This document shows, one piece after another, positions 5,968-19,831 of a stretch of 31,883 nucleotides of DNA. This DNA is from a virus. Under the pieces are notes generated by a model. It searched no databases. It saw nothing but the letters and a program-made list of their open reading frames with translations, and was not told the DNA's origin. Where the stretch lies: positions 1 through 31,883 of the IMG/VR virus record IMGVR_UViG_3300042554_000190. One strand, given 5' to 3'. Position 1 is the stretch's first letter; each line of letters begins with the position of its first letter. The translations under genes were made by a program, and so were the position numbers.

Positions 5968-6888
5968 ATGCCGCTCCCTATTGGTTGGGGTGAACAAGGC
6001 TGGGGTGAGCTAGGCTGGGGATCAGTTACTAACGTTACCGTTGCCCTCGGTGGCTTCGGTTCTTCGGTAAGTGGCTGGGGCGAAGAAGGCTGGGGCGAGA
6101 CCTATTACCGCCTCACTGGAACGGGTGAGGTAGGGACGGTCTTTGTCGTCACAGACCAGAACATTGATGTAACGGGGCTTCAAGCTGCCGCACAACTAGG
6201 CGATGTTGTAGTCGATACCAACACGGTTATTTTGATAACCGGGTTGCAAGCTCAAGCCATCTTGAGCGACGAAGTAGTTGTTGCTGATGCTGTTGTTATC
6301 GAGACGGGAGTCGAAGGTACAGGGCAGCTAGGTACGGTCGAAGTATTCTCGGTTTACTCGGTAAGTGGGGTATCTGCTTCTGGGCAAATCGGAACTGTAT
6401 CGGTAGTCACAGATCAGGTTCTGGTAGTAACCGGGCTTGAAGCTACTGGTCAGCTTGGTGAAGAGTTCGTCGTATCTGGCGTAATAGCCAAGCCTGACGG
6501 TGTGCAGGCTACAGGCGAAACGGGTGACGTATCTGTCTTCACCGATCAGGTTCTGGCAGTCACCGGAGTGGCGGGAACCGGCGAAGTTGGAACTGTATCT
6601 CTTGTCCTTGATTGCGTGTTCCCGGTCACTGGAGTTGCCAGCACTGGAGAAGTCGGCACGGTCACGGTCTTCCTTGAGAAGATTGTCCCGGTCACGGCGG
6701 TCACGGGTACCGGTCAGGTTGGCACAGTTACAGCAGCGGCGGGTGCTAATGTTATAGTTGTCGGCGTATCGGCAACGGGCACGATAGGGAAAGTAAACGT
6801 TTGGAGTCAGATAAATCCTGACCAGAATGCAAATTGGCAAAACATCAATTCTTCCCAGTCTGCAAACTGGGTGCCGATAGCGGCGTGA
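5968..6888 (+). CDS. Repeat-rich structural protein, fibre-like
   Basis: A 306-residue protein in three parts. Residues 1-47 contain Trp-Gly repeats (GWGEQGWGELGWG and GWGEEGWGE). Residues 50 to about 279 consist of about eleven tandem units of 22 residues, with consensus TGVxxTGxVGTVxVxxDxVxV. The last 20 residues hold a degenerate pair, QNANWQNI and QSANWVPI. Regular beta repeats of this kind suggest an elongated beta-solenoid or stacked-strand fibre. There is no enzyme motif. Its place between a structural protein and tail-fibre-like genes supports a role in the fibre or tail. The same repeat unit also ends the zinc-ribbon protein at 3851. Confidence 0.75.
   Translation: MPLPIGWGEQGWGELGWGSVTNVTVALGGFGSSVSGWGEEGWGETYYRLTGTGEVGTVFVVTDQNIDVTGLQAAAQLGDVVVDTNTVILITGLQAQAILSDEVVVADAVVIETGVEGTGQLGTVEVFSVYSVSGVSASGQIGTVSVVTDQVLVVTGLEATGQLGEEFVVSGVIAKPDGVQATGETGDVSVFTDQVLAVTGVAGTGEVGTVSLVLDCVFPVTGVASTGEVGTVTVFLEKIVPVTAVTGTGQVGTVTAAAGANVIVVGVSATGTIGKVNVWSQINPDQNANWQNINSSQSANWVPIAA
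6115..6804 (+). repeat. About eleven tandem 66-base (22-residue) coding repeats
   Basis: Inside the 306-residue protein. Units begin at T50 of the protein and repeat every 22 residues; the Gly-Val/Leu and TGxxGTV positions are the best conserved. DNA copies have diverged (for example at third positions), so the repeat is old at the DNA level but conserved at the protein level. Unit count is by eye. Confidence 0.75.
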
Positions 6889-6898
6889 GGTAAATAAA

Positions 6899-7909
6899 AT
6901 GGCTAGTACATATTCAACTAACCTTGCAATCGAACTGATCGGAACGGGAGATCAGGCTGGTGCGTGGGGTAATACCACGAATACCAACCTTGGAACGTTG
7001 ATCGAACAGGCGATCTCAGGGTACGTCACTCAGGCCGTATCAACTGGTACTGACACGACCATCACAATCCCGAACGGTGCGACCGGTGTTGCCCGTAACA
7101 TGTTTATTGAACTGACGGGTACGGGTGGAGCAAGTACGAACCTAATCGTCCCATCTAACAGAAAGCTGTACTTCATTTATAACAACAGCACTGGCGCGGT
7201 AACGGTCAAAGTTGCTGGTCAGACGGGTGTTTCGTTTGCCGCTGGCGAGAAGAAAATTCTGGCTAGTAACGGCACAGACGTTATTGAAGCAACTACTTAC
7301 CTCACGGCAGTCCCTGCCAGCGTGACCGTCACGACCTTGACGGCGACTTCAGCCAGCATTACTACGCTGTCCGGAACTACGCTGGGTTATTCCAGTGCCA
7401 ATATTACGACGCTCTCTGGAACGTCGGCCAACATCACGACCATCAACGGTACCTCGGCCAACATCACGACGGTCACAGGTACGACGGGTGGCTTTACTAG
7501 CGCCAACATCACGACGCTGAGTTCAACCTCGGCCAACGTCACTACACTTACTGGTACGAGTGCGACCATCACGACTATTCTGGATGGCGCGGGCAATGTT
7601 CGTGACATCCCATCAGCGGGTGCCGCAAAGACATCTCTTTACACGCTGGCTATTACTGACGTTGGTGAATTTGTCACGGTGGGCGCAAGCGGCGCGATTG
7701 ATGTGCCAAACGGTGTATTTGCAGCCGGAAATGCGGTATCAATCTTCAATAACACCGCAAGTAACGCGACGATCAGTCTTACGATCACAACTGCATATCT
7801 TGCGGGTACGGACTCGGATAAAGCGAGCGTGACTCTAGCAACCCGTGGCGTAGCTACGGTTCTGTTTATTTCCAACTCGGTCTGTGTTCTGACGGGGAAT
7901 CTGACCTAA
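6899..7909 (+). CDS. Tail-fibre-like protein with SANITT repeats
   Basis: A 336-residue protein. The N-terminal block (YSTNLAIELIGTGDQAGAWG, then NTTNTNLGTLIEQAISG) is one I recall as the virion-attachment end of many phage tail fibre proteins. Residues 40-140 are beta-rich. Residues about 145-225 hold short repeats of the form ITTLSGTSAN, spaced by 10 or 15 residues, which would stack as a beta-solenoid or triple beta-helix. The C-terminal part (about 235-336) is a distinct beta domain. It probably acts as a fibre or fibre adaptor. Its stop overlaps the start of the glycine-rich gene (TAATG), suggesting partners in one fibre. Confidence 0.75.
   Translation: MASTYSTNLAIELIGTGDQAGAWGNTTNTNLGTLIEQAISGYVTQAVSTGTDTTITIPNGATGVARNMFIELTGTGGASTNLIVPSNRKLYFIYNNSTGAVTVKVAGQTGVSFAAGEKKILASNGTDVIEATTYLTAVPASVTVTTLTATSASITTLSGTTLGYSSANITTLSGTSANITTINGTSANITTVTGTTGGFTSANITTLSSTSANVTTLTGTSATITTILDGAGNVRDIPSAGAAKTSLYTLAITDVGEFVTVGASGAIDVPNGVFAAGNAVSIFNNTASNATISLTITTAYLAGTDSDKASVTLATRGVATVLFISNSVCVLTGNLT
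7345..7590 (+). repeat. Short coding repeats (ITTLSGTSAN type)
   Basis: Seven or so near-identical segments of 30 or 45 bases containing variants of gccaacatcacgacg. They encode ITTL/ITTI/ITTV plus a Gly-Thr-Ser-Ala-Asn turn. DNA similarity between copies is high, so slippage or recombination could change the copy number. Confidence 0.75.
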
Positions 7910-10900
7910 TGAGCGGAATAATGATGCTTCTGCTGGCGCGTGTCGTCGGCGGTAATAGGTTCGTTGAAGTCAAAATCTTCACGGCTACAGGGTCGTGGAC
8001 TGCCCCAACTGGCGTGAGCGAGGTTGAGTATCTCGTTGTCGCTGGTGGTGGCGGCGCAGGATACGGTTCAGCAGGTGGTGGTGGCGCAGGTGGATTCCGT
8101 ACTGGTACTGGGTTTTCAGTAACAGCAGGAACTTCCTACACAATTACTGTTGGCGGCGGTGGCGCTGGCAAAACCGGTTCACCTTACGGTACGGGCAATC
8201 CCGGTAACGATTCCGTATTTAGCACTATTACTTCTACTGGCGGCGGCGGTAGCGGAGGTAACGACGGCAGTCCACTTGCGACTGGTGTAAACGGATTAAA
8301 TGGTGGATCTGGCGGTGGCGGTGGATTTAGCGAAAATGCTCCGGGGTATACCGGCACTGGCGGATCTGGAAACACACCGTCAGTAAATCCGTCACAAGGT
8401 AACAACGGCGCAAACGCAATCCGTCCCGGTAGCGGTGCTAAATACGGCGGCGGTGGCGGTGGCGCTAGTGAGGCCGGTAATACAGACGGCAGCGGTCACG
8501 GCGGTGATGGCACGGCATCTGTTATTTCTGGATTTTCTACGACCTACGCTGGCGGTGGCGGCGGATCAATGAAAGACGGCGTTCTTGCGCCGGGTGGTGA
8601 TGGCGGCGGTGGAAACGGCGGTAATTTGCTTGGCGGTTATTCTGGAACCTCTGGCACAGCAAATACTGGTGGTGGGGGCGGTGGAGGTACTACTAGCGGT
8701 AACTCCGGCGGCTCCGGCATTGTAGTTCTTCGCTACGCAGTTCCTGTCCAGACCGTAGTTCAGTCCTATACCTCATCCGGAATCTTTGTTCCGCCGACTG
8801 GCGTGACCGAGGTTGAGTACCTTGTTGTTGCTGGTGGTGGCGGAGCTTCGACTGGTGGTGGAGCAGGTGCGGGTGGATTCCGTACTGGTACTGGCCTTGC
8901 TGTAACAGCTGGCACTTCTTACACCGTCACAGTAGGTGCTGGTGGTGCTGGTGGTAATAATACCGATGTCCCCGGCTCTCAAGGAAATTCGTCGGTATTC
9001 AGTACCATCACTTCTGCTGGCGGCGGATCTGGGTCGTACACACAAGGATCATCTTCAGGCGGTAATGGTGGTTCTGGCGGTGGCGGAAACGGATTTGGTT
9101 CTGGTGGACTGGGCAATACACCTTCAGTAAGTCCATCGCAGGGCAATAATGGCGGTAACGGAAATACATCTTTCCCCTATCGCGGTACCGCTGGCGGCGG
9201 CGGCGCATCGGCTGTTGGAGTTAATGCAACGTCAGATGTTGGTGGCGCTGGTGGTGCTGGTACAGCGTCAAGTATTTCTGGCTCTTCTGTAACTTACGCT
9301 GGCGGCGGTGGCGGTAGTCGCGGTAACGCCGTTACTCCAAGTGGCACTGGCGGTCTTGGTGGCGCTGGTGGCGGTGGAAATGGTGGCGAAAGTGGTATTG
9401 CGACACCGGGTACTGCTAATACTGGCGGTGGCGCAGGTGGTGGTACGGTTCCGGGCCAAACAGGTGGCTCTGGCATCGTCTTCATCAAGTACACACTGGG
9501 TACTGCTTCGATCCTGACGTTCAACTCAACCACCAACTTTGTAATGCCTGCTGGCGTGACGAGCGTGGACTACCTCGTTGTTGGAGGTGGCGGTGCAGGA
9601 GGTAGAGGGCAGGCTTCGGCTGGTGGCGGTGGCGCTGGCGGGTTTAGAACCGGAACTGCATTAACTGTTACGCCCGGATCTACGTACACCATTACTGTTG
9701 GTGCTGGTGGGGCAGCAAGCCCAAATTATTCAGCCGTGGGCGGTTCTGGCGGTGACTCTGTTTTTGGAAACATTACTTCTACTGGCGGCGGCGGTGGCGC
9801 TGGCGAAAGCACTACTTCTGGCGGTTCCGGCGGATCAGGAGGCGGCAGTTCTAGACTTAGTGCTGCTGGCGGTGCAGGTAATACTCCAAGCGTATTCCCA
9901 TCTCAGGGGAATAATGGAGGCGCAGGAAGTCCAAACACGTTAGCCGGTGGAGGCGGTGGTGGCGCGTCTCAAGTTGGTGAAACAGCACCCGCTAATAGAG
10001 ATGCGGGTAACGGCGGAAATGGCACAGCATCCTCCATCTCTGGTTCGTCTGTAACTTACGCTGGTGGCGGCGGCGGGTCTGCCACAACGCCTGCTGGTGG
10101 CGATGCGGGTGGTACTGGCGGCACAGGTGGTGGCGGTAATGGAGTTGGAACCAACCCCGGAACAGGTGGTAGCGGAACTGCTAACTTAGGTGGCGGCGGT
10201 GGCGGCGCGATTGATGCTGGTAACGGCGGCTCCGGCGTAGTCATCCTGAAGTTGAATCTTGGAAACTATTTGGTCTACACCTTCACTTCCACAACTTCGT
10301 GGACGGCTCCGGCTGGTGCGGTGAGCGTGGATTATTTGGTTGTAGCCGGTGGTGGAGCGGGAGGCGGTGCTATCAATCCATCTCTCGGTGGCGGTGGTGG
10401 AGCAGGTGGATTCCGTACAGGTACTGGCTTAGCTATTACGGCTGGTCAGTCATACACCATTACGGTCGGTGGCGGCGGCAGTGGTAATACCAGCAACGGA
10501 AGTAATGGTAGTGACTCTGTATTTAGCACCATCACTTCTACAGGCGGTGGAAGAGGGTCTAATAACGGTAATGGCGCGGCGGGTGGTTCTGGTGGCGGCG
10601 TAGGCAGTAACGGTACAGGTGGTGCTGGAAATACTCCATCTGTTAGTCCATCTCAAGGCAATAATGGCGGTAATTCGAGTAGTGACGCCCCTGCGTACGG
10701 TTCTAGCGGCGGTGGCGGCGCTTCTGCTGCTGGATCAAATGGTAGTGGATCAGGCGGCGGAAACGGCGGTGCTGGGCAAGTAAGTGCTATCACCGGAACA
10801 TCTACTGCATATGCTGGCGGTGGGGGTGGTGGTAGTGTTGCTCCGGGCACACTAGGTACCGGTGGAACTGGCGGCGGCGGAAGCGCCGCTACGCAGCCAG

Positions 10901-11034
10901 CAGCAAGAGGAGGTAGTGGCACTTCTAATACCGGTGGCGGTGGCGGAGGAGTGCGCAACGCATCTGGACCGTCAGGTGCTGTTGAAGGTGGTAATGGTGG
11001 TTCAGGTATCGTAATTCTTAGGGTGAATTTCTAA
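7909..11034 (+). CDS. Giant glycine-rich four-module tail protein
   Basis: A 1041-residue protein made almost wholly of four modules of about 250 residues (approximately 21-280, 284-530, 535-780 and 787-1041). Each begins with an aromatic strand and a VEYLVVAGGGGAG or VDYLVVGGGGAGG core, then GGFRTGT, YTITVG, a GNTPSV-x-PSQGNNG block, TYAGGGGGS and an SGIVVLRY-type end. This is the glycine-rich domain seen in phage tail and receptor-binding proteins (Pfam Gly_rich_2, from memory). Polyglycine stretches in phage adhesins form sandwiches of polyglycine II helices. It is probably the main fibre tip or receptor-binding protein. Module number may vary by recombination. No signal peptide is seen; the short hydrophobic start (MSGIMMLLLARVV) is unusual. 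Confidence 0.8.
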   Translation: MSGIMMLLLARVVGGNRFVEVKIFTATGSWTAPTGVSEVEYLVVAGGGGAGYGSAGGGGAGGFRTGTGFSVTAGTSYTITVGGGGAGKTGSPYGTGNPGNDSVFSTITSTGGGGSGGNDGSPLATGVNGLNGGSGGGGGFSENAPGYTGTGGSGNTPSVNPSQGNNGANAIRPGSGAKYGGGGGGASEAGNTDGSGHGGDGTASVISGFSTTYAGGGGGSMKDGVLAPGGDGGGGNGGNLLGGYSGTSGTANTGGGGGGGTTSGNSGGSGIVVLRYAVPVQTVVQSYTSSGIFVPPTGVTEVEYLVVAGGGGASTGGGAGAGGFRTGTGLAVTAGTSYTVTVGAGGAGGNNTDVPGSQGNSSVFSTITSAGGGSGSYTQGSSSGGNGGSGGGGNGFGSGGLGNTPSVSPSQGNNGGNGNTSFPYRGTAGGGGASAVGVNATSDVGGAGGAGTASSISGSSVTYAGGGGGSRGNAVTPSGTGGLGGAGGGGNGGESGIATPGTANTGGGAGGGTVPGQTGGSGIVFIKYTLGTASILTFNSTTNFVMPAGVTSVDYLVVGGGGAGGRGQASAGGGGAGGFRTGTALTVTPGSTYTITVGAGGAASPNYSAVGGSGGDSVFGNITSTGGGGGAGESTTSGGSGGSGGGSSRLSAAGGAGNTPSVFPSQGNNGGAGSPNTLAGGGGGGASQVGETAPANRDAGNGGNGTASSISGSSVTYAGGGGGSATTPAGGDAGGTGGTGGGGNGVGTNPGTGGSGTANLGGGGGGAIDAGNGGSGVVILKLNLGNYLVYTFTSTTSWTAPAGAVSVDYLVVAGGGAGGGAINPSLGGGGGAGGFRTGTGLAITAGQSYTITVGGGGSGNTSNGSNGSDSVFSTITSTGGGRGSNNGNGAAGGSGGGVGSNGTGGAGNTPSVSPSQGNNGGNSSSDAPAYGSSGGGGASAAGSNGSGSGGGNGGAGQVSAITGTSTAYAGGGGGGSVAPGTLGTGGTGGGGSAATQPAARGGSGTSNTGGGGGGVRNASGPSGAVEGGNGGSGIVILRVNF
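7969..11031 (+). repeat. Four tandem glycine-rich modules of about 750 bases
   Basis: Module starts are near 7972, 8758, 9511 and 10267. The repeated landmarks YLVVAGGGG, GGFRTGTG, GNTPSV-PSQGNNG and YAGGGGGS occur once per module in the same order. DNA copies are clearly related but diverged, and dominated by GGT and GGC codons. Confidence 0.8.
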
Positions 11035-11282
11035 TGAAAGCGTATCAAATCATGGGTATTGACACGGCGATGCACTTGCTTCGTCCGGGTGCTAAGTGGG
11101 AAATCAGCAATCGTGAGATCACGCGGTGGGAAGATCCGCGCCCGAAGCCCTCGTGGGAAGAGATCATGTTCACGATTGAAAAGATCAAGGAACTGGAAGA
11201 TGCGGTTCCCACAATCTTGTTGCCGGAGCAGCAGAAGGCTTTTGACGAGTACGCCAAACAAATCGAACAGGCGGCTGCATGA
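11034..11282 (+). CDS. Small phage protein next to fibre genes
   Basis: An 82-residue protein (MKAYQIMGIDTAMHLLRPGA, then KWEISNREITRWEDPRPKPS, a WEEIMFTIEKIKELEDA helix and a C-terminal helix). The block HLLRPGAKWEI with RWEDPRP is one I recall from small phage proteins beside tail fibre genes, with no known function. A fibre accessory or chaperone is possible from position. It overlaps its upstream neighbour by one base (TAATG) and its downstream neighbour by four (ATGA). Confidence 0.75.
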   Translation: MKAYQIMGIDTAMHLLRPGAKWEISNREITRWEDPRPKPSWEEIMFTIEKIKELEDAVPTILLPEQQKAFDEYAKQIEQAAA

Positions 11283-11878
11283 TTCTGCACGGGATATTTC
11301 CCACACCGGTTGCCCGGTTCAATCTCGACCGTGAGTTCACGGAGCGGGAGTTGGAGTTTGTGCTGAAACAAAGCCAGCATAACAACGAAGGCAACACGAC
11401 AAGCGACGATAACTACGTCTTCAACAACATTGAGTTGAAGGGCTTGAGCGATTTTTGTGAGGCTTCTGTTGCGACGTACCTGAAGGAAATCCATGCCCCG
11501 AGCAAGGACGTAAACCTTCGGATCACGCAGTCATGGCTCAACTACACCAAGCCCGGACAGTGGCACCACAAACACGCTCATCCGAACTCGTTCATCTCTG
11601 GTGTGCTGTACATCAAAGCCAACAAGGAATCGGACAAGATCTACTTCTACAAGGACGGCTACAAGCAGATCAGTCTGCCGACCGAGAACTGGAACTTGTA
11701 CAACTCCGAGTCTTGGTGGTTTGAAGCAGTTGCAAAAGAGTTGATCCTGTTCCCGTCTAGTCTCACGCACATGGTTCAGACCGTGCAGGGTGAAGACACT
11801 CGGATCAGTTTGTCGTTTAACACGTTCCCAGTTGGCTATGTTGGAGATGAAAAATCTCTGACGGGGTTGCATGTTTGA
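11279..11878 (+). CDS. Putative 2OG-Fe(II) oxygenase (TIGR02466-like)
   Basis: A 199-residue protein of the expected length for the family of phage and marine bacterial putative 2-oxoglutarate/Fe(II) oxygenases (TIGR02466, from memory). Visible signatures are the iron-binding start WHHKHAHPNSFISGVLYI (residues 95-112; H99-x-H101), the distal PSSLTHMVQ with H164, and the 2OG-binding R175 in DTRISLSFN. These enzymes hydroxylate or otherwise oxidise substrates using 2OG and O2; the substrate here is unknown. Position directly after fibre genes suggests modification of a fibre or of a host surface component, by inference only. It overlaps the previous gene by four bases (ATGA) and ends three bases before the next oxygenase. 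Confidence 0.8.
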   Translation: MILHGIFPTPVARFNLDREFTERELEFVLKQSQHNNEGNTTSDDNYVFNNIELKGLSDFCEASVATYLKEIHAPSKDVNLRITQSWLNYTKPGQWHHKHAHPNSFISGVLYIKANKESDKIYFYKDGYKQISLPTENWNLYNSESWWFEAVAKELILFPSSLTHMVQTVQGEDTRISLSFNTFPVGYVGDEKSLTGLHV

Positions 11879-11880
11879 AC

Positions 11881-12450
11881 ATGTTCAACACGCCGTTGAA
11901 AGACTACGTAAAGGTCTACAAAGGCTTTTATGACGCTGAATTTTGTAAAACAGTTGTAGGTCAAATTGAAGGTATTAACTGGACTGAACACACTTTTTAT
12001 AATCCGGTGTCAGACGAGCTAAAGTCGTATGACCACGAATTGTCGATTTCTTACGATGCGGTACCGTCCAAGAAAGACTTAGATTTAAAAATTTGGCATG
12101 CAATAAACAGATACGTAAATGAAGATTTTGCGTATATGAAAGATTGGTACGACGGCTGGAATGGTTACTCGTATTGTAGATTTAATCGGTACAACCCTGA
12201 AACCAAAATGAAACTTCATTGTGACCACATCCAGTCCATATTTGACGGTAACAAAAAAGGTATACCTACGCTTACCGTGCTTGGTGCGTTGAATGAAGAT
12301 TATGAAGGTGGTGAGTTTGTACTGTGCGATGAACAGATAGATTTCAAAACTGGGGATGTGATGATCTTCCCTAGTAATTTTTTATATCCACATGAAGTCA
12401 AACCCGTAAAATCGGGAGTTCGGTATAGCTTCGTTTCATGGGTTTGGTAA
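11881..12450 (+). CDS. 2OG-Fe(II) oxygenase, prolyl 4-hydroxylase type
   Basis: A 189-residue protein from ATG 11881; an in-frame TTG six bases earlier is less likely. It has the P4H/2OG-Fe(II) features: H113-x-D115 (KLHCDH), the EGGEFVL strand, TGDVMIFPSNFLYPHEV with distal H171, and R181 in SGVRYSFVSW. It is not closely similar to the oxygenase upstream, so the pair is not a recent duplication. The DNA is clearly AT-richer than its neighbours (12061-12120 has 19 G+C in 60), which suggests separate acquisition. Substrate is unknown; fibre or virion protein, or a host component, are possible. Confidence 0.85.
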   Translation: MFNTPLKDYVKVYKGFYDAEFCKTVVGQIEGINWTEHTFYNPVSDELKSYDHELSISYDAVPSKKDLDLKIWHAINRYVNEDFAYMKDWYDGWNGYSYCRFNRYNPETKMKLHCDHIQSIFDGNKKGIPTLTVLGALNEDYEGGEFVLCDEQIDFKTGDVMIFPSNFLYPHEVKPVKSGVRYSFVSWVW

Positions 12451-12457
12451 GACTGAT

Positions 12458-12471
12458 AGGAGATTGAGATG
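12458..12471 (+). promoter_or_regulatory. Initiation cassette, copy 3 (AGGAGATTGAG-ATG)
   Basis: AGGAG at 12458-12462 lies six bases before ATG 12469, in an 18-base gap after the oxygenase. It matches the stretches at 4227 and 5488. Confidence 0.65.
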
Positions 12472-12840
12472 GCTCACTTTGCAGAAATTGATTCAAACAA
12501 CGTTGTGCTGCGCGTCATTGTCGTAGCTAACAAGGATACTGCTGACGCTAACGGCAACGAAGTCGAGAGTATCGGTATCGCATTCTGCCAGCGTTTGCTG
12601 GGCGGTAACTGGGTACAAACTTCGTATCACGGCAACATCCGTAAGAACTATGCGGGTATCGGCTACACCTACGATGCTGCTATTGACGCATTTGTTCCGC
12701 CGCAGCCGTATCCGTCATGGGTTCTGAATACGAACACCGCCCAGTGGGAAGCCCCAGTGCCATATCCGACTGACGGTAAAAACTATACGTGGGATGAAGC
12801 CACGCAGTCGTGGGTTGAGGTTGTTGCTCCGGGGGCGTAA
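12469..12840 (+). CDS. Trp-rich conserved phage protein, fibre-associated
   Basis: A 123-residue protein. The N terminus is MAHFAEIDSNNVVLRVIVVA. The middle holds IGIAFCQRLLGGNWVQTSYH and NIRKNYAGIGYTYD. The C terminus carries Trp/Pro motifs (PSWVLNTNTAQWEAPVPYP, DGKNYTWDEATQSWVEV). I recall this family from cyanophages and other aquatic phages near tail fibre genes. Function is unproven; a fibre or virion component is likely. It has the strong initiation cassette and closes the fibre region before the lysis genes. Confidence 0.8.
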   Translation: MAHFAEIDSNNVVLRVIVVANKDTADANGNEVESIGIAFCQRLLGGNWVQTSYHGNIRKNYAGIGYTYDAAIDAFVPPQPYPSWVLNTNTAQWEAPVPYPTDGKNYTWDEATQSWVEVVAPGA

Positions 12841-12842
12841 TC

Positions 12843-13328
12843 ATGATGACAATGATCTCAACCTTCCTGTCTTTTTTGGCAGGTGGGCTACCCAAGATCC
12901 TGCAAATCTTCCAAGACCGGCAGGATAAAAAGCATGAGTTGGCCCTCGTCGCTGCTCAGAAGGAGCGTGAATTGGCTTTGGCCGAACGAGGCTTTATTGC
13001 TCAGGCACGGGTAGAAGAGATCAAGCTAGAGCAGGTTCAGGTGCAGTCCGCAGCCGAGGAGCGTGTGGCCCTGTATCAGCACGACATGGAAATCGGCAAA
13101 GGCGCATCGCAGTGGATGATTAATCTACGTGCATCGGTTCGCCCGGTCGTCACTTACATCTTCGTGCTAGAGCTGGTCGCCATCAACATCGCTGGCGTAT
13201 GGTACGCCTACAACACGGGTGTGCCGTTTGCCGCTGCGATGGCAGAAGTGTTCTCGGATGACGAGATGCTGATCCTATCCTCCATCATCGCCTTCTGGTT
13301 CGGGACACAGGCTTTTGGCAAGAAGTGA
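12843..13328 (+). CDS. Holin of the 3TM (GTA holin) type
   Basis: A 161-residue protein. An N-terminal hydrophobic/amphipathic stretch (ISTFLSFLAGGLPKILQIF) is followed by a long charged coiled coil (about 24-88, rich in Glu, Gln, Ala) and two strong transmembrane segments (VVTYIFVLELVAINIAGVWY at about 107-126, and MLILSSIIAFWFGTQAFG near the C terminus). This pattern matches the holin superfamily found in gene transfer agents and phages (Pfam GTA_holin_3TM, from memory). It would make lesions in the inner membrane to release or activate the endolysin. It lies directly before the endolysin gene and overlaps it by four bases (GTGA), a classic lysis cassette. The start may be ATG 12843 or the next ATG at 12846. 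Confidence 0.85.
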   Translation: MMTMISTFLSFLAGGLPKILQIFQDRQDKKHELALVAAQKERELALAERGFIAQARVEEIKLEQVQVQSAAEERVALYQHDMEIGKGASQWMINLRASVRPVVTYIFVLELVAINIAGVWYAYNTGVPFAAAMAEVFSDDEMLILSSIIAFWFGTQAFGKK

Positions 13329-13813
13329 AAGTCAGCCCTGCCGCCATTCAGATGATCAAGCACCACGAAGGGGTGAGGACTAAGCCTTACCGCTGTCCGG
13401 CGCTTTTGTGGACGGTGGGCGTGGGTCACGTGATTGATCCAAAACACACTGCTATCCCATTTAATGAACGTAAAGATCTACCGATACCCGCAGGCTGGGA
13501 CCGGGTTCTCACGATGGACGAGGTGGACCGGATACTTTCTCAAGACCTTGGCCGGTTTGAGCGTGGTGTGGTTCGACTTTGCCCTGCTGCTGTTGGCAGT
13601 CAAGGAATCTTCGATTCTCTCGTCAGTTTTGCCTTCAACGTGGGCCTTGGCAATCTCCAACGCTCTTCCCTTCGGATGAAGACCAACCGGGGCGAGTTTG
13701 AAGAGGCGGCAGACGAGTTTCTGAAATGGACGAAGGCGGGTGGTAGAGTATTGCCGGGTCTGGTCAAACGGCGTAATGACGAACGTGCGCTGTACCTGTC
13801 GGGAGTCTCCTGA
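13325..13813 (+). CDS. Endolysin, GH24 lysozyme (muramidase)
   Basis: A 162-residue protein of normal size for phage lysozymes. Near the N terminus, IKHHEGVRTKPYRCPALLWT holds E15, C24 and T30. These have the E-8aa-(D/C)-5aa-T spacing of the GH24 catalytic triad, here with Cys instead of Asp. VGVGHV follows. The C-terminal part has the usual LVSFAFNVGLGNLQRSSLR and GLVKRRNDERALYLSG blocks. It cleaves the glycan backbone of peptidoglycan. No signal peptide or SAR anchor is visible, so release should depend on the upstream holin. The start is GTG 13325, overlapping the holin stop. Its TGA overlaps the next ATG. Confidence 0.92.
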   Translation: MKVSPAAIQMIKHHEGVRTKPYRCPALLWTVGVGHVIDPKHTAIPFNERKDLPIPAGWDRVLTMDEVDRILSQDLGRFERGVVRLCPAAVGSQGIFDSLVSFAFNVGLGNLQRSSLRMKTNRGEFEEAADEFLKWTKAGGRVLPGLVKRRNDERALYLSGVS

Positions 13814-16751: not shown

Positions 16752-19379
16752 ATGAATCAGAACCCATCTATGGCAGGACTCGCCTCCCTCGTGCAGTCAC
16801 GAGGTCGGAACGGCGACTCTGTGCTTGTTCACATGGCTCCCGAAGAAGTTGCCGGGTTGCAAAGCTTGGCTCTTGCTGCTGGTGGTAGCCTGACCTTGAA
16901 CCCGGATACTGGCCTGTATGAGGCCAACTTCCTTAAGAAACTTCTGCCGACCATCCTTGGTTTTGGGTTGAACTTCCTGTTCCCCGGCCTTGGCGCGTTG
17001 GGTAGTGGTCTTCTAGTTGGTGCTGGTGAAACCATCCGTACCGGCGGTGATCTTGGCAAGGGCCTTATGGCCGGTCTCGGTGCGTTTGGTGGTGCCGGTA
17101 TCGGTAGCGCCCTATCTGGTGCTGCTAAGGCAGGCAGTGAAGCCGCCCTGCAAGAAGTTACTACGACCGCTGCCCAGAAGGCCGCTACTGAAGCTGCCAA
17201 GACGGCTGGTACTCAAGCCGCTACCGAAACTGCTAAGCAAGGTTTGTTTAGCCTAAACCCGAACATGTCGGGAACCTTGCAAAGTTACGGTCAAGGCATA
17301 AAAGCTCTAGGTAATCAGTTTGGCCGCGAAGGCTTCATGAACGCCATACCGGGTGGCACGATTGGCAAGGGCGCTATGATCATGTCCGCTGCCAATGCCT
17401 TGACTCCTGAGATGGAAATGCCGGAGGGCGGCGGTTACAACATAGACGATTCGTACTACGAATCTATGGGGTACAGCCCTGAACAAGGCCGGTTCCTCGG
17501 CGGTCAATGGCGTAAAGGCTATCCGGGCTTTCCCGGCTATGCTGAGGGTGGCGCTGTCATGCCCCGCCCAAACTATGACTATCCGCAGGCAGGAATCACC
17601 AAATCAAATTACGCACAAGGTCTTGATTTTACCAAGCCGCGAGAAATTCTCGATGGCTACGACACCAAGATTGACCCGTTTACGGGCGAAGAACGTTTTG
17701 CGGAAGGTGGTGAAGTGGCGTATGCCGCGCCACCTGAGTTGTTGCTGAAGAGATACTCGGAAGAGTATGACACTCCTCCAATACTTGAGTCTTTGCCGCC
17801 TACGGTTGATTTTGGTCCAACTGATATCGGCAGACGCCCGCCGGATTTAATGTTGCCGCCGGAAGAGCCAATCTACGGTGGTTTTAATCAAGTAGGCGTA
17901 GCCCCACCGCGTAATGTTCAAGCCCAGATGGGTCCGCAATCGTTGGAGCAGTATTACCAAGGTCTCTTGTCTGCTCCGCAGCAACAGGCGTATGACCCGT
18001 CGTTCTTCAACTACATGCAGTCGCTAAATAACTTTGCGACTTCTCCGGTGGCTCCGCCTCCTGCGCCTCCTCCGCCTCCTGCTCCTCCGGGCGGCGGTAC
18101 TAATACTGGTGGCGGCACGACCACGAATCCGGGCGGCACTACAGGTGGAGTAACCACGGGTGGTAGCAATACTAGGTGGGACCCGAACCAAGGCAGGTTC
18201 GTATCAACCGGCGGTAGTCCGGGCGACACCGGTACGGATCTGGATGAGCTTAGGAATTTAATCAATTCCGGTATGTTCCCCGGTTTTAATTTTGGTGATC
18301 TAAGTAACTACTTGCAAAACGGCGGGTATGGCGATACCTCTGGTATGGTTTTCGATCCTGCTACGGGCACGTTCCGTCAGCCGGGAAGTCAAACTACGAC
18401 CACGCCTCCGGGTACGGATACGACCGGCGGGGATCAGTTTAAATTTGATCCCAACAACTATCAGTTCAATCCGTTTGTTGATGGGTTCGATATAAATTCG
18501 TTGCCAGAATACCAGCAGAATCAAAACATGCCCGTTGGCAACCTGACCGGCATCGACCAGTTTGCTGATCCTAATTACTCCACGGGTATGCAGTTCGACA
18601 TGAGTCAGTTGATGCAGCCCGGAAAAGGTCCGGATATTGGCTCTCCGATGTATGGCGGGGACATTCAACCCTTCCAGTACGACTTCTCTGGTATGGGCCA
18701 GATGGGTGACATGGGCGGGTACGGTCAGCAGTTCCAAGGGTTCCAGCCGCTTTCGACTGACTTCGGTTCGACCTATCAGGCTCCTGCCATGCAGACGCCG
18801 ACATTTGACGCTTCGGCCTACAACCCGCAGCAGTTTGATCTGGGCAGCATGGGGTACGGACTTGGTAGCCTCCCGGCTATCTCTTCAACCTATCAGGCTC
18901 CCACGGTACAAACTCCGACGTTTGATACCTCGGCGTTCCAAATGCCAGCCTACCAAGCCCCGATGATGACGGGCGGCGACATGGGTATGTCTAACGTTGC
19001 CACGGCTCCACAGTTTGGGTTTGGTAACTCAGATGTGCTTTACGGTCGCAGCAATTTTGATATGGGCGGTGGCGAAGGCAACATCTTTGGCTTTGCTGGT
19101 GGTGGCGCTATCCAAAAGGCTGCGGCAGGCAAACTCGTGACCGGCGACGGTGATGGTATGTCCGACGACATCCGTGCCAATATCAACGGTAATCAAGAGG
19201 CGCGGCTTGCTGACGGTGAGTTTGTGATCCCTGCCGATGTCGTGTCGCACTTGGGTAATGGCTCGACCGATGCTGGCGCAGACCGTTTGTACAGCATGAT
19301 GGATCGTATCCGTAAGGCTCGTACTGGACGCAAGCAGCAAGCCCCAGAGATCGAAGCTGAGAAGTATTTGCCCGCATGA
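16752..19379 (+). CDS. Large internal virion / ejection-type protein 1
   Basis: An 875-residue protein. The N terminus (MAGLASLVQSRGRNGDSVLV, then HMAPEEVAGLQSLALAAGG) and a Gly/Ala-rich hydrophobic region (about 60-135, LLPTILGFGLNFLFPGLGAL) could be membrane-active. The middle is low-complexity and rich in Pro, Gly, Gln and Asn, with a proline run (about 434-446). The C terminus has a block I recall from many podovirus internal proteins: GDGDGMSDDIRANINGNQEA, RLADGEFVIPADVVSHLGNG, and a terminal helix (DRLYSMMDRIRKARTG). It carries repeated GG motifs (YAEGGAV at 263, FAEGGEV at 316, FAGGGAI at 781). It is probably packaged and ejected with the DNA, like T7 internal core proteins; this is inferred from gene order. 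It overlaps the GNAT gene by four bases. Confidence 0.7.
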   Translation: MNQNPSMAGLASLVQSRGRNGDSVLVHMAPEEVAGLQSLALAAGGSLTLNPDTGLYEANFLKKLLPTILGFGLNFLFPGLGALGSGLLVGAGETIRTGGDLGKGLMAGLGAFGGAGIGSALSGAAKAGSEAALQEVTTTAAQKAATEAAKTAGTQAATETAKQGLFSLNPNMSGTLQSYGQGIKALGNQFGREGFMNAIPGGTIGKGAMIMSAANALTPEMEMPEGGGYNIDDSYYESMGYSPEQGRFLGGQWRKGYPGFPGYAEGGAVMPRPNYDYPQAGITKSNYAQGLDFTKPREILDGYDTKIDPFTGEERFAEGGEVAYAAPPELLLKRYSEEYDTPPILESLPPTVDFGPTDIGRRPPDLMLPPEEPIYGGFNQVGVAPPRNVQAQMGPQSLEQYYQGLLSAPQQQAYDPSFFNYMQSLNNFATSPVAPPPAPPPPPAPPGGGTNTGGGTTTNPGGTTGGVTTGGSNTRWDPNQGRFVSTGGSPGDTGTDLDELRNLINSGMFPGFNFGDLSNYLQNGGYGDTSGMVFDPATGTFRQPGSQTTTTPPGTDTTGGDQFKFDPNNYQFNPFVDGFDINSLPEYQQNQNMPVGNLTGIDQFADPNYSTGMQFDMSQLMQPGKGPDIGSPMYGGDIQPFQYDFSGMGQMGDMGGYGQQFQGFQPLSTDFGSTYQAPAMQTPTFDASAYNPQQFDLGSMGYGLGSLPAISSTYQAPTVQTPTFDTSAFQMPAYQAPMMTGGDMGMSNVATAPQFGFGNSDVLYGRSNFDMGGGEGNIFGFAGGGAIQKAAAGKLVTGDGDGMSDDIRANINGNQEARLADGEFVIPADVVSHLGNGSTDAGADRLYSMMDRIRKARTGRKQQAPEIEAEKYLPA

Positions 19380-19831
19380 TTCTTCGTGAACTGAAAAGCG
19401 GTAACGAAGACTTGAGGGAGGTTATAAGCCTTCTTGTTGAGCACTTTGTGCCTGAACACAAGATGGGTCCGTTGAGCGCAATCAACGTCAATCTTGAGAA
19501 AGGCGTAAAGTGGGTCATATTTAATATGGACCAAGTAGCGTTTGGTGTCGAAGATGAAGGCAAGCTAGTCGGCTCGCTTGGTCTGCACCGTACGTCACCT
19601 TGGTATTCTGATTCCGAGTATCTGGCAGATGGCTGGTTTTATGTTCTGCCCGAATACCGCAAAACCGGTGTAGGTAAGATGCTGGTTGATGCAGCTAAGA
19701 AATATGCTGCCGAAGCAAACCTCCCGCTCATCATTGGAGTCTTCACCAGCGAAGACGCGGATACTAAAGCTCAGGTCATGCAAAGACTTGGCCTGACTAT
19801 GGTTGGCGGCTTGTTCGCCACAGGAGTTTAA
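19376..19831 (+). CDS. GNAT-family N-acetyltransferase
   Basis: A 151-residue protein with the GNAT layout. The N-terminal helix is followed by strands (KWVIFNMDQVAFGVEDEGKL, VGSLGL), then motif A, FYVLPEYRKTGVGKMLVDAA, with the acetyl-CoA-binding R95-x-x-G98-x-G100 loop. The remaining beta-alpha-beta region ends in MQRLGLTMVGGLF. It transfers an acetyl group from acetyl-CoA to an amine; the substrate cannot be told from sequence. Its position between two presumed virion proteins, overlapping one by four bases (ATGA), means it is expressed with them. It might acetylate virion proteins or host targets. Confidence 0.85.
   Translation: MILRELKSGNEDLREVISLLVEHFVPEHKMGPLSAINVNLEKGVKWVIFNMDQVAFGVEDEGKLVGSLGLHRTSPWYSDSEYLADGWFYVLPEYRKTGVGKMLVDAAKKYAAEANLPLIIGVFTSEDADTKAQVMQRLGLTMVGGLFATGV

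Follow-up and report, generated by a model that had tools for sequence, protein, structure and literature searches.

2OG-Fe(II) oxygenases of cyanophages have been interpreted as enzymes acting on 2OG/nitrogen metabolism or DNA repair (PMC3037559, PMC9602691, PMC10611076), and a count of 24 has been reported for one cyanophage (PMC9602691). Among the closest described arrangements is the 2OG oxygenase/'ferrochelatase' pair of HTVC023P-type pelagiphages. PMC9599517 notes this pair as co-located auxiliary metabolic genes and reports that, in the phages treated there, a phage-encoded ferrochelatase always has an adjacent 2OG oxygenase; the passages on the pair draw no link to fibres. In HTVC023P and 023Pt_psg01, the pair comes immediately behind Gly-rich fibre genes and a gene of the phrog_7759 type. 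We found no proposal tying these oxygenases to fibre modification in the main texts of the open-licence literature. From the analysis below we propose that phage-encoded hydroxylases tailor a Gly-rich fibre or its assembly, a reading to which we assign a probability of roughly 0.6.

The window, meaning the whole 31,883-nucleotide stretch of viral DNA that was analysed, contains the following features.

7909..11034, + strand: Gly-rich fibre gene, 1041 aa, with four Gly_rich_2 (PF21722) domains
11034..11282, + strand: u82, 82 aa, between the fibre gene and OX1; phrog_21526 (E 2.1e-19)
11279..11878, + strand: OX1, a 199-aa 2OG-Fe(II) oxygenase; PF13759/TIGR02466/phrog_81
11573-11581, 11768-11770 and 11801-11803: OX1 catalytic codons for H99xH101, H164 and R175
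11873..12468, + strand: insertion containing OX2, where the close relative L001 has 14 bp instead (L001 8595-8608)
11881..12450, + strand: OX2, a 189-aa prolyl-hydroxylase-like 2OG-Fe(II) oxygenase; PF13640/phrog_61
12217-12225, 12391-12393 and 12421-12423: OX2 catalytic codons for H113xD115, H171 and R181
12469..12840, + strand: fibre-chaperone-like gene, 123 aa, phrog_7759 (E 1.3e-48), the downstream border of the cassette

Profile searches placed OX1 in Pfam PF13759 (E 1.5e-20; 73.9 bits against a cut-off of 27) and in NCBIfam TIGR02466 (73.6 bits against a cut-off of 62.5), and the protein has the conserved HxH...H...R pattern and the DSBH-type fold of that family. Residues H99xH101...H164...R175 showed no variation across 23 OX1 relatives. 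The AlphaFold (AF2) model had a mean pLDDT of 92.4, and its nearest folds were 2RG4/3BVC (Z 19.9), followed by OGFOD1 (Z 16.8) and then PHD2 and P4H. OX1 shares its fold with the solved members of PF13759/TIGR02466 (2RG4, 3BVC; phrog_81), and the HxH...H...R residues are also present in the 2RG4 alignment; those members are uncharacterised proteins, whereas OX1 falls in a phage clade linked with Gly-rich fibres. A protein-hydroxylase role would be a reasonable reading of the OX1 model, a fold by itself showing no substrate. A cellular origin of OX1 was considered and rejected: a scan of 84,980 cellular genomes, which detects close relatives, returned no OX1 relative.

OX2 scored 54.6 bits against PF13640 (cut-off 27; E 2.3e-14, profile search) and combines the HxD...H...R residues with the fold of the prolyl-hydroxylase-like enzymes; H113xD115...H171...R181 did not vary across 31 relatives. 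Its AF2 model (mean pLDDT 90.5) found the viral collagen prolyl hydroxylase vCPH of PBCV-1 as the best Foldseek match, followed by P. putida P4H, PiuC-type enzymes and PHD2, and its profile matches the sequences of PiuC, prolyl 3-hydroxylase 1 (P3H1) and P4H. P4H, P3H1/leprecan, PHD2 and PBCV-1 vCPH, all PF13640, are thus like OX2 in motif and fold, but at identities of only 14-20%. At the sequence level the top PDB match is the PKHD-type hydroxylase PiuC/YbiX (9GHL, 9QN1, 3DKQ), whose gene context is unlike that of OX2; assignment of OX2 as a PiuC/YbiX equivalog was rejected, the scores lying far under the cut-offs (39.9 vs 143 bits and 21.9 vs 399). The relatives and fold matches of OX2 are mainly protein hydroxylases, and a role of this kind would be the natural reading of its model.

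The original prediction for this locus, made from the sequence alone, named two oxygenase genes a few bases apart, the second AT-rich, together with their catalytic residues. Both open reading frames are intact at the positions given, the residues are exact, and the gap is two bases if OX2 starts, as is most likely, at ATG 11881; the listed alternative start, TTG 11875, would overlap OX1. The GC content of OX2 is 38.8% (GC3 41.6%) vs 50.0% in OX1 (GC3 69.0%). Two other statements need correction. The pair was placed directly after the fibre gene, but u82 intervenes, its stop codon overlapping the ATG of OX1. The enzymes were also called unrelated. No BLASTP similarity was detected between them, but profile comparison gave 90% probability and both models match prolyl-hydroxylase-type folds, and we therefore regard OX1 and OX2 as separate families within one superfamily. 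In the profile alignment the HxH of OX1 is not cleanly registered on the HxD of OX2, and H101 is at most a candidate iron ligand in place of the usual carboxylate.

The fibre gene matches PF21722 in four stretches (E 3.9e-96) as well as phrog_2295 and phrog_863; the protein is 34.4% Gly and contains four copies of the motif N[TS]PS[VT]xPSQGN. Despite its high Gly content, the longest strict Gly-X-Y run is 3 triplets; the fibre is therefore not a collagen, and a collagen-like substrate or collagen hydroxylation system was rejected. We also examined the fibres for a mark of the oxygenases. The motif NTPSVxPSQGN was discarded as a mark of OX1, since lineage and secondary fibres both confound its distribution (84/152 with oxygenase vs 1/15 without), and the fibre C-terminus showed no consistent difference. 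Fibres adjoining OX2 were enriched in Pro-Gly at cluster level (p 0.0025, rank 3 of 98 dipeptides), the freshwater subset not being significant; after correction for relatedness this link is only suggestive. Upstream of the fibre gene, window 5968-6888 encodes a protein of short degenerate repeats (VTGVxGTGxxGTV) that matches no Pfam or PHROG family. The two small genes that flank the oxygenases have relatives in the cultured cyanophage S-SSM5, u82 at 43% identity and the phrog_7759 gene at 42%. Judged from position alone, u82 is probably a fibre-assembly accessory. The 123-aa phrog_7759 protein has a weak match to the tail-fibre family phrog_27959 and its homologues adjoin Gly-rich fibres in many phages; its chaperone role is putative. 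Elsewhere in the window, at 19376-19831, an ORF resembling a GNAT acetyltransferase by eye lies amid late structural genes.

The gene order is conserved in freshwater relatives. A viral-contig scan with OX1 as the query returned 80 loci, and nearly all those of sufficient length have the order fibre - u82 - OX1 - phrog_7759 gene. When only loci with at least 2.5 kb of upstream sequence were counted as assessable, a Gly-rich and/or chaperone-like neighbour was present in 113/113 contigs (57/57 with the OX1 query, 56/56 with a marine query). With u82 as the query, for which the loci are close relatives at 88% identity or more, a Gly-rich ORF precedes u82 in 59/59 assessable loci and OX1 follows it in 58/58. 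The phrog_7759 query recovered OX1 in 43 of 51 loci; among the exceptions, at least four distinct phages (L240/L241, L272, L292, L300) carry the fibre, u82 and the phrog_7759 gene at a site empty of OX1. OX1 is thus itself an optional member of the cassette, and the modification would not be essential. In 28 whole contigs, a Gly_rich_2 domain is found no more than 2.6 kb from 30 of 33 PF13759 matches, at a median distance of 517 bp, the mean random probability of such proximity being 0.09, although these contigs are related and the 33 matches are not independent of one another. Where a contig has two fibre modules, each can have its own OX1-type gene (L029, L281 and the L086 contig). Marine phages have the same parts in a permuted order, fibre - chaperone-like gene - OX2 - OX1.

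Cultured phages carry the cassette in permuted form. The SAR11 phage HTVC023P, reached through a structural gene and not through an oxygenase, has four Gly-rich fibres followed by a phrog_7759-type gene, an unknown gene, OX2-type and OX1-type genes, the 'ferrochelatase' and tail genes, beyond which a Gly-rich gene and an OX1-type gene occur once more. In the cyanophages S-SSM5, P-RSM4 and S-SM1 the surroundings are comparable. The genes in S-SSM5 and P-RSM4 are a Gly-rich gene (PF21722 was confirmed in that of S-SSM5), a carbamoyltransferase, a PF13640 oxygenase, a 'ferrochelatase', the phrog_7759 gene and the u82 homologue, after which come four more 2OG oxygenases. S-SM1, whose virion proteomics was published in 2010 (PMC3037559), has a fibre, a Gly-rich gene and a phrog_7759-type gene together with several oxygenases in a row. 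The association is common to T4-like and podovirus-like phages. Among cultured phages, HTVC025P, Bellamy and Melnitz-3 have the phrog_7759 gene with no recognised oxygenase nearby.

A potential concern is whether proximity to fibres is a property of these oxygenases in general. In the OX1 tree, a clade of 45 rows (support 96/92) contained 40 fibre-linked genes, whereas in the rest of the superfamily 4 of 25 were linked and 21 were not; because the label is neighbour-based and many tree loci were found through cassette genes, the OX1-query sets and whole-contig distances are fairer measures. Distant PF13759 and PF13640 genes sit elsewhere, some flanked by uvsY and uvsW and others in the vicinity of psbA/talC, and the superfamily as a whole is therefore not dedicated to fibres. 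Fibre linkage is a trait of the OX1 clade.

The distribution of OX2 differs from that of OX1. By blastn, window 11035-11872 corresponds to L001 7757-8594 at 95% identity and window 12469-12822 to L001 8609-8962 at 84% identity, leaving OX2 in the intervening insertion. OX2 did not follow OX1 in any of 16 contigs with 97-99% OX1 identity, and PF13640 was above cut-off in 5/34 whole contigs compared with 33/34 for PF13759. The co-occurrence with fibres expected from the original prediction is strong for OX1 and partial for OX2, which is rare yet repeatedly found beside OX1. The further proposal, that the two act as a two-step pathway, finds no general support: OX1 is the sole oxygenase of the pair in most fibre cassettes, and OX2 is missing from phages that share 95% identity across u82-OX1. 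The rarity of OX2 argues against an obligate pathway, and its candidacy as an essential partner was rejected. OX2 does adjoin OX1, in both orders, in L021, L031/L083, L081, L082, L289, L088 and the marine set, and in a tree the freshwater and marine OX1-adjacent OX2s fall into different clades with non-linked OX2s in between. OX2, though rarer than OX1, has joined it in several separate lineages, and the repeated pairing supports a functional link. Elsewhere the slot after OX1 is occupied by an HNH gene or by a ParB-like 126-aa gene. The latter (L081:5555-5932 and about 40 other matches) has no Pfam or PHROG match and resembles ParB/sulfiredoxin N-terminal motifs by eye.

Other enzymes occur sporadically in these islands, where neighbours are mostly structural. 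Four marine islands (L331, L334, L364, L365) have a PF13469 sulfotransferase, which in three stands between the chaperone-like gene and OX1 (L331:4773-5525, L334:4075-4812, L364:4677-5489). In L380 (L099 contig), an island at 7398-13392 next to a fibre module adds a carbamoyltransferase, a DUF6445 gene and a pair of tryptophan halogenases after fibre-chaperone-OX2-OX3-OX1-OX2. A PF04488 glycosyltransferase lies upstream of the fibre in L071, and glycosyltransferases and a PF13640 gene are located downstream in the L292 contig. The presence of sulfotransferase, carbamoyltransferase, halogenase and glycosyltransferase genes in some islands fits virion tailoring. In the uncultured viral contigs L137, L140, L151 and L155 we also noted several PF13640-like genes arranged in tandem in a stretch of about 10 kb.

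Several names in public annotation bear on this family. PSSM2_169 of P-SSM2 (L308:5989-6582), named 'ferrochelatase', matches none of the ferrochelatase families but does match PF13640, which is also reached by PSSM2_163 (L308:3772-4341), named 'DNA endonuclease V'; by these matches both names look like misannotations, the families concerned being phrog_3531 and phrog_274. The HxD...H pattern is present in phrog_274 proteins. It was also seen in the phrog_2954 'ferrochelatase', for which the profile match to a 2OG oxygenase was only 32%. Such misannotations may affect counts, for example the seasonal enrichment in PMC11561400.

Taken in this setting, OX1 would be the core enzyme of a fibre-tailoring cassette, encoded between a Gly-rich fibre and a chaperone-like gene, and would most likely hydroxylate the fibre polypeptide, or its precursor bound to the chaperone, ahead of assembly or in the course of it. 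OX2 would be an optional addition, a prolyl-hydroxylase-like enzyme gained at the position behind OX1, that probably contributes a second, independent hydroxylation. The benefits may include fibre stability or altered receptor recognition. The gene order and its conserved linkage, the intact catalytic residues, the folds, the optional nature of both enzymes and their repeated pairing are observed; we infer the fibre as the substrate, and likewise the residue modified and any consequence for adsorption, for host range or for the stability of the fibre.

The main rival explanation is that the oxygenases are metabolic or regulatory cargo, acting on 2OG/nitrogen status, on succinate supply or on proteins of the host (EF-Tu or ribosomal proteins, for example), and lodged in an insertion hotspot behind the fibre. 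This is the published interpretation for cyanophages (PMC3037559, PMC9602691) and for DSL-LC04 (PMC10611076). OX2 is an AT-rich insert missing in close relatives, and P. putida P4H, one of its close fold matches, was solved with EF-Tu. The slot also accepts HNH and ParB-like genes, so that part of the pattern may reflect a hotspot. We nevertheless consider cargo an unlikely account of the whole, because it leaves unexplained the clade-specific linkage, the separate OX1 genes for separate fibre modules, the permuted order with constant partners, and the association shared by T4-like and podovirus-like phages.

Modification of host surface glycans or lipids, for instance as a block to superinfection, with the fibre neighbourhood reflecting receptor co-evolution, appears improbable. 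Fibre genes and receptor-modifying genes can adjoin, and a few of these islands do contain glycosyltransferases, but the enzymes that OX2 resembles act on proteins (PHD2 and the prolyl 3- and 4-hydroxylases), the genes sit amid assembly and lysis genes and not host-takeover genes, and OX1 overlaps u82, itself always beside the fibre in the surveyed loci. The tight linkage of OX1 to u82 through the overlapping ATG, and its adjacency to phrog_7759 genes, could instead mean that OX1 acts on one of these small proteins, or is a non-catalytic folding factor, and that the fibre itself is not hydroxylated. We hold this to be very improbable: the invariance of all the expected OX1 catalytic residues argues for catalysis, and u82 and the chaperone-like gene are also found without OX1. 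Tailoring of the fibre or of its assembly is the reading that we prefer.

Few unexplained genes are as common in aquatic phages as those for 2OG-Fe(II) oxygenases. The conserved linkage to Gly-rich fibres and chaperone-like genes, cultured phages included, offers a specific alternative to the metabolic reading, one within reach of virion mass spectrometry. We suggest tentatively, with the odds somewhat against so broad a claim, that virion tailoring is the role of many 2OG-Fe(II) oxygenases that are now counted as auxiliary metabolic genes of phages, and that Gly-rich receptor-binding fibres are decorated by means of modular islands. Such islands, combining hydroxylases with optional sulfo-, carbamoyl- and glycosyl-transferases and halogenases, would extend fibre chemistry beyond the 20 amino acids. 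If this is true, the count of such auxiliary metabolic genes would change, and phage-host recognition would gain a post-translational chemistry.
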